DNA of 59,784 nucleotides, from the IMG/VR virus record IMGVR_UViG_3300027741_000069, positions 1 to 59,784 of that record, one strand, 5' to 3'. Origin of the DNA: a virus. The notes below the pieces were generated by a model. It was given only the letters and a program-made list of their open reading frames with translations. It ran no database searches and was not told where the DNA came from. This document shows, one piece after another, positions 41,281-41,777 of the stretch (its first letter is position 1; each line of letters opens with the position of its first letter). The position numbers and the translations under genes were made by a program.

Positions 41281-41777
41281 CACACAGACACCGGCTAGTA
41301 CTGGCTTATTTCGAGTACCTATGATAACTGGACCTAGGGTCGCAGGGACGGAAGACTTTCGGCTGTGGAAAGCACTCAACGAGTATCCTTAACAGGACCA
41401 TGATGGGATATGCCTATAAACCCGTTTCGTTGTTAAAGAAATCAAAAGGCTAAAAGAAGGGATAGTATTCCCTACGTTTGTAAGTATGTTAGCGTATATT
41501 TTACAAACTGCCGTCGTATAAAGACGCAACTCGAGGTACCGGACGACCGCCTCTGTAATTGTTGTAACGCTAAGTGATGGTGTGAACTCGGATGAAATCA
41601 CATTGACTTTGCCCTGCCTGGGCAAAGTGTGACAGTTAAATCTGGATGAAGTAATTTCGCTTTAGCGTATTAGTAATTTACTTCAATTTAAAAAAAAGAA
41701 AAAGAAATGATGAGCGGTGTTAACTGCGAGTCATTGGACTTGTGTAGCAAGTCCTTAATAAGTTTAAAAAACTTTTT
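41281..41777. ncRNA. Candidate structured non-coding RNA region (about 490 nt)
   Basis: This is the longest gene-free stretch. No frame looks like a protein, and G+C is about 45% over 41281-41640 by hand count, visibly above its surroundings. Perfect stems: GTTTGTAA/TTACAAAC (41476-41483 with 41501-41508), ACTTTGCCC/GGGCAAAGT with a 5-nt loop (41606-41614 with 41620-41628), GAAGTAA/TTACTTC (41648-41654 with 41678-41684) enclosing CGC/GCG (41658-41667), GGACTTG/CAAGTCC (41736-41742 with 41748-41754), plus shorter ones near 41331, 41373 and 41459. Downstream on the plus strand a small A/T stem ends in a T run (41773-41777). It does not show tRNA, tmRNA, RNase P or group I intron hallmarks to my eye. 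Strand and class are undetermined. Confidence 0.45.
41736..41777 (+). terminator. Hairpins with T-run between convergent units
   Basis: A 7-bp perfect hairpin (41736-41754) is followed by AAGTTT...AAACTT and five T at 41773-41777. It lies where rightward transcription from the gp55 cluster meets the leftward gp26 unit. The stems are modest, so it could equally belong to the structured region. Confidence 0.35.

Follow-up and report, generated by a model that had tools for sequence, protein, structure and literature searches.

The large RNAs GOLLD and ROOL often, but not always, lie near tRNA islands, and ColE1 RNA II, used below only as a comparison for a role in replication, is a structured transcript of about 0.5 kb. 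Some large phage RNAs form homo-oligomers (PMC12286853). Polynucleobacter-1 is a 141-nt motif of unknown function that its discoverers in 2010 considered a probable RNA and probably cis-regulatory, with the table entry “Polynucleobacter-1 y y ?” (PMC2864571); in a literature search, its Rfam accession, RF01718, was named only in that paper. Noncoding RNAs go unmentioned in the passages searched in reports on CBB, on the Erwinia Eneladusvirus phages, and on phAPEC6. Here we describe a phage locus whose 5' third matches RF01718 and whose fold continues beyond that model.

A gene-free stretch and its Rfam match

The window, meaning the whole stretch of DNA that was analyzed, comprises the 59,784 bases of a single virus record. 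Its genes include T4-related ones for a gp55-like sigma factor, SbcD/gp47, SbcC/gp46, and portal and baseplate proteins (Pfam- and PHROG-type matches), and by these matches its source is a T4-related phage. The first-pass annotation had singled out positions 41281-41777 as a gene-free, stem-rich stretch in an otherwise tightly packed genome, higher in G+C than its surroundings and lying between convergent transcription units, and all of these descriptions were borne out. ORFs overlapping the stretch are only spurious and no longer than 78 aa, the remainder of the window is densely coded, and the G+C content is 0.408 in the stretch versus 0.365 for the window. The nuclease gene on one side runs on the plus strand, while on the other side a 72-aa ORF and the baseplate-hub gene, both on the minus strand, together face the RNA stretch from its 3' side (Table 1). 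The 9-bp stem with a 5-nt loop that had been noticed by eye lies at 41606-41614/41620-41628. Folding, which had been proposed as a check, gave structures more stable than shuffled sequence on both strands: -140.3 kcal/mol versus a shuffled mean of -119.5 on the plus strand (z -3.42; 0 of 100 shuffles as good), and a z of -2.74 on the minus strand.

Several other regions of the window attracted attention in their own right. The first 7 kb, seemingly ORF-poor, is a single 2,332-aa open frame running off the end; this minus-strand frame (3-6998), at least 2,332 aa long, exits at the window start, and the opposite-strand ORFs inside it are probably spurious. A minus-strand ORF of 3,973 aa (14785-26706), very large for a phage protein, could not be assigned an identity, and a plus-strand ORF of 593 aa (45455-47236), just ahead of the portal gene, matches homing/HNH endonuclease families (phrog_3339, 6e-115). 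At 54155-54234 on the plus strand there is a match to the Rfam freshwater-2 RNA (RF02980, a cis-regulatory type; 53.7 bits), which directly precedes an ORF at 54232-54564 and has a T4-late-promoter-like TATAAATA about 30 nt upstream, near 54120; this arrangement suggests that freshwater-2, too, might serve as an element of phage 5' UTRs.

The first-pass annotation had been unable to match the stretch to GOLLD or ROOL, and in this it was right: neither they nor any other large RNA in Rfam reached a gathering score in the window or E<=5 in 40700-42300. It overlooked, however, the match of the 5' third to RF01718, a score that makes this segment a member of that family at the level of sequence (Table 1). 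The cis-regulatory placement upstream of genes is not met in the window, where the RNA follows a plus-strand gene and faces a convergent one, and upstream genes vary among relatives; this failure bears on the role proposed for the motif and not on its sequence membership.

Scanning viral contigs with the nuclease protein yielded 80 loci, and at most of those inspected a gap of about 380-800 nt, beginning after the nuclease gene or after one inserted ORF, separates it from a convergent gp26-like gene. Homology detected with nhmmer spans most of the 497-nt region in several relatives. The gaps sort into three types, A (with a 5' domain of the RF01718 type), B, and C; types A and B have a 3' half in common, and types B and C, by eye, a 5' block. 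RF01718 matches occur in 12 of 40 loci scanned, and a lax-threshold search of a single gap each of types B and C produced no noteworthy match. A conserved protein in another frame, which would have told against an RNA, is not to be found among the relatives' gaps.

Table 1. Positions of the structured RNA, its parts, and the adjoining genes in the window
Feature	Position	Strand	Evidence or remark
PDDEXK_15/RusA-like nuclease gene, upstream neighbor	40758..41279	+	Pfam 2.5e-26; phrog_244 2.3e-17
5' domain (P1-P6), Rfam RF01718 Polynucleobacter-1	41293..41435	+	model 1-141 of 141; cmscan 103.3 bits, gathering score 37
P1	41298-41302/41314-41318	+	covaries
P2	41328-41334/41338-41345	+	covaries
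P3	41356-41360/41368-41372	+	covaries
P4	41377-41382/41427-41432	+	covaries
P6	41402-41407/41421-41426	+	covaries
P7 hairpin (AGGGA/TCCCT), beyond the Rfam model	41458..41473	+	33.9% of cells paired as aligned
P8 hairpin	41476-41483/41501-41508	+	8/8 pairs changed on both sides; 88% of cells paired
Pseudoknot PK2, UUAGCGU with ACGCUAA	41489-41495/41567-41573	+	97.5% of cells paired; 7/7 pairs changed on both sides (52 relatives)
Core H-type pseudoknot PK1, helix GUCGU/ACGAC	41513-41517/41543-41547	+	within 41513..41553
PK1, interleaved helix GAGG/CCUC	41533-41536/41550-41553	+	core also in RaK2-like jumbo phages
P10, CAAC with GUUG	41527-41530/41561-41564	+	97% of cells paired; 3/4 pairs changed on both sides
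Matched direct repeats CTCGGATGAA and ATCTGGATGAA flanking P12	41597..41648	+	3 variable positions agree between repeats
P12, 9-bp hairpin with 5-nt loop	41606..41628	+	covariation support
3'-terminal hairpins, 41736-41742/41748-41754 and AU-rich 41760-41765/41769-41774 then TTT	41707..41777	+	direct sequence reading
T4-like baseplate hub gene (gp26-type), downstream convergent neighbor	42000..42848	-	Pfam T4_baseplate 3.2e-15; phrog_150

A covarying, pseudoknotted fold

Helices drawn from the window sequence and from an earlier consensus were tested in an alignment of 52 type-A relatives (alignment A2), in which they pair in 88% of cells. Both sides have changed in 47 of 62 base pairs, against 32.6 in shuffles (0 of 500 as high), and the covariation score is 0.382, compared with 0.156 when shuffled and at most 0.106 with partners slid. 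The shuffle control ignores relatedness, and since the helices come partly from one member of the alignment, the slid control leans in their favor. Both pseudoknot helices fall outside the Rfam model, and the 5' strand of PK2 is borne by the P8 loop. P10 and P12 are supported, with a both-side pair count for that small set not above shuffles; at the P7 site a hairpin is present in most relatives, and the alignment register there is poor. The 3'-terminal hairpins, which have similar counterparts in relatives, are likely, from sequence, to mark either the 3' end of the RNA or a convergent terminator.

Computation thus shows a covarying plus-strand core of about 360 nt whose parts include two pseudoknot helices and, flanked by matched repeats, a 3' hairpin. 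The proposal of a large structured RNA had been made liable to refutation by a lack of covariation or conservation in relatives; compensatory change on the plus strand is instead extensive and is kept across very diverse phages, so that covariation, conservation, a folding energy better than that of shuffled sequence, and the absence of a protein frame all support it. Comparison with relatives makes RF01718 a fragment of this core, and the RNA appears to represent a new, much larger family that contains it.

The repeats around the 3' hairpin, about 50-59 nt apart, take the forms CTCxGATyAz and ATCTxGATyAz. The bases x, y, and z each vary between phages, and they agree between the two repeats in 120/122, 122/122, and 120/122 RNAs, respectively, where shuffles, made without correction for relatedness, gave means of 61-71 and maxima of 82-86. 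RaK2-like RNAs carry similar repeats at CGTCAR, the last base of which agrees in 38/43; four of the five exceptions are misregistered rows. Because the repeats are identical and not complementary, they suggest two sites for one partner, although that partner has not been identified and the cause of the agreement is unexplained.

Relatives in freshwater and cultured jumbo phages

The core motif, GUUGN ... h2 - ACMG - N(CAAC)C - h2', forms an H-type pseudoknot. It was placed by a pattern scan in at least 120 viral contigs. Among freshwater phages it is present in more than 100 contigs, in nearly every case with a gp46-like (SbcC) gene on one side and a gp26-like gene on the other; among 80 listed pattern contigs, most have the expected flanking genes. 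In 146 distinct cores, helix 1 is 97.8% paired (shuffled mean, 85.7%; maximum, 88.1%) and helix 2 is 93.6% paired (shuffled mean, 79.8%; maximum, 82.3%), with 0 of 2000 shuffles reaching either value. Matches to the pattern in 257 Gb of genome contigs were discounted as chance-like, about 480 exact ones being expected (15 specified bases, two strands); those hits were not inspected singly.

The gene immediately upstream of the RNA appears to be interchangeable: at most pattern-found loci it is an ORF other than the PDDEXK gene, and these replacements include a family with 69 members. At 69 loci (in L090-L209), an ORF of about 143 aa (MTW..GFVYLIT...RKYIGKKLAKF), its start GIY-YIG-like by eye, lies immediately upstream in place of the PDDEXK gene. 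At one locus (L099) the RNA strand is reversed relative to SbcC/gp46, and another (L094) is rearranged so that the RNA lies between gp26 and the nuclease gene.

By their SbcC and nuclease proteins, the nearest isolates are jumbo phages. The corresponding place in RaK2-like phages is likewise a gap with few genes or none, and in eight of the nine inspected, Muenster being the exception, that gap holds the same pseudoknot, with compensated changes in helices 1 and 2 among CBB, XaC1, Kaldavass, and others. In RaK2/121Q-like jumbo phages, the relatives of the RNA occur both at the gp46/gp26 position and as 3-5 paralogues per genome. A blastn search with the Sharanji copy hit 162 places in 41 phage records, mostly unannotated. 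Model R1, built from both the freshwater and the RaK2-like groups, finds five copies each in CBB, Munch, and BF, four in Sharanji, three in RaK2, and one in each of the five type A/B freshwater contigs tested (192-347 kb); it finds nothing convincing in T4, P-SSM2, KVP40, PA5oct, Phosso, Atu_ph07, or Salicola phage. Many RaK2-like sequences helped to train R1, which by itself accounts for part of their scores; what carries information is the number of copies, together with the single copies elsewhere. Since R1 does not recognize type C, the kinship of that type rests on its 5' block.

Every copy in Munch and CBB lies within an annotated gap of about 0.6-0.8 kb, and the 3-5 copies in each RaK2-like genome mostly lack annotation or bear small ORFs of doubtful status. 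Overall similarity between freshwater and RaK2-like RNAs is too low for single-query nhmmer and blastn, and blastn of the window RNA and of types B and C against isolated phages returned nothing credible. The shared core, the shared place, and the 3' repeats make common descent of the two groups the best reading. Separately, the DNA beside this same RusA-like nuclease gene is poor in genes over about 1.5 kb in PA5oct (L087 2478-3992) and about 1.0 kb in Phosso (L088 2986-4001); neither nhmmer nor model R1 recognized a relative of the RNA in these gaps, where other structured RNAs could be present.

Of 33 distinct RaK2-like copies, 26 are preceded, ahead of the core, by TGRRAC[GA]-N16/17-TATA[AC]T, which occurs in 0.2% of shuffled sequence. 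It resembles a promoter class of CBB with a -35 of TGAAACG and a -10 of TATA, under which the CBB report places DNA-synthesis genes (PMC5259590). In the absence of expression data, these signals strongly suggest that the RaK2-like copies are transcribed from their own promoter, one belonging to that class. A full length of about 0.5-0.6 kb for the RNA is also strongly suggested. A T-run hairpin considered as the terminator of these copies was rejected, being missing from many paralogues and possibly an inserted hairpin. In the window itself, a consensus scan found no promoter and no stringent terminator, the 3'-terminal hairpins being unscored, and transcription there could thus come from the upstream operon.

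Role of the RNA and comparison with known systems

A fixed place with changing neighbors, a reversed orientation, dispersed copies, and promoters of their own all favor a trans-acting RNA gene over a leader or 3' UTR. We consider it highly probable that the RNA is a trans-acting noncoding RNA, and its being the product of an independent, independently transcribed gene for a large structured RNA of this kind is the best explanation overall and a probable one. It is only inferred that the RNA accumulates during replication and acts as a compact scaffold or homo-oligomer or forms an RNP core; on this view one co-evolving partner would dock at two identical sites, the matched repeats. The scaffold or oligomer role, inferred and not shown, is held only tentatively, by analogy with the large phage RNAs that form homo-oligomers (PMC12286853); the sequence contains no catalytic motif and points to no partner protein. 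With one copy per freshwater phage, a dosage argument does not extend to those phages.

Of the alternatives, a counter-defense or host-takeover RNA, which would bind a host protein or nuclease as a decoy or inhibitor, survives best, though it remains unlikely. Independent expression, high structure, and the presence of several copies would all accord with it, and the matched repeats could be two binding sites co-evolving with a partner; direct evidence is lacking, however, and conservation over phages of very different hosts exceeds what is usual for defense-specific factors.

We give little credence to a replication element, such as an RNA II-like structured primer or an R-loop origin RNA. 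The location beside the recombination genes gp46/47 and the likeness of the promoter to the class that precedes DNA-synthesis genes in CBB would fit it, as would the fairly even spacing of the RaK2-like copies (CV 0.15-0.17 in four genomes, P about 0.002 each), which is suggestive only, the genomes being related and the test post hoc. Yet neither a GC-skew signal nor a change of coding strand marks the copies, only one copy is present per freshwater phage, and the uniform orientation of the RaK2-like copies merely follows the dominant coding strand and is uninformative because most genes lie on it.

That the structure is a 3' UTR, bidirectional terminator, or mRNA-stabilizing element for the gp46-nuclease operon and the convergent gp26 operon is equally improbable: the convergent position and the 3'-terminal hairpins speak for it, but terminators do not conserve a pseudoknotted fold of 360 nt, the RNA is strand-reversed relative to gp46 at one locus, and the RaK2-like paralogues lie far from this locus, mostly with their own promoter. 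Very unlikely is a cis-regulatory leader or riboswitch, as the original describers' rating would have it (“cis-reg: probably”; PMC2864571), when in the window the RNA follows the nuclease gene and faces a convergent one, leaving no 5' UTR there, when upstream genes vary and unrelated genes lie downstream of the RaK2-like copies, and when 360 or more nucleotides with two pseudoknots are unusual for a leader. An intron-like or homing element mobilized with neighboring nucleases, brought to mind by adjacent PDDEXK ORFs and nearby homing endonucleases, is scarcely tenable, for the RNA lies between complete genes, none of them split, has no Rfam intron match, stays while adjacent ORFs change, and in RaK2-like phages is mostly not next to nucleases.

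Beyond the trans-acting RNA gene preferred here, we advance with somewhat less than even confidence a wider proposal: that RF01718 is a fragment of a widespread, pseudoknotted RNA superfamily of about 0.4-0.6 kb, probably ancestral to RaK2-like and related freshwater jumbo phages, whose concerted matched repeats would engage a co-evolving partner, an RNA machine without a characterized counterpart. A short metagenomic motif without a function has become a full RNA gene family, shown to belong to jumbo phages. Relatives in cultured phages, among them Sharanji of E. coli K-12 (host given as MG1655) and phages of other enterobacteria, make laboratory tests of its role feasible, and annotations of RaK2-like genomes could be corrected at once at 3-5 copies each.

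Among known systems, ColE1 RNA II differs in that no origin signal was found at these loci and no hybrid or RNase H site has been demonstrated. The tie to Polynucleobacter-1 is close in sequence, the window segment and the 12 matching loci scoring far above the gathering score; RF01718, however, covers only P1-P6 of one subtype, leaving P7-P12, both pseudoknots, and the matched repeats beyond its 141 positions and type B and type C loci without a match. From GOLLD and ROOL the RNA differs in that the tRNA-island location is not met, ARAGORN having found no tRNA or tmRNA in the 59.8-kb window; it resembles them as a large, phage-borne noncoding RNA with a complex fold and unknown function (PMC12286853). 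The best reading is that it is comparable in kind to GOLLD and ROOL and a member of neither, and should it prove to be one more class of large phage RNA alongside them, it will help in asking what such RNAs do.
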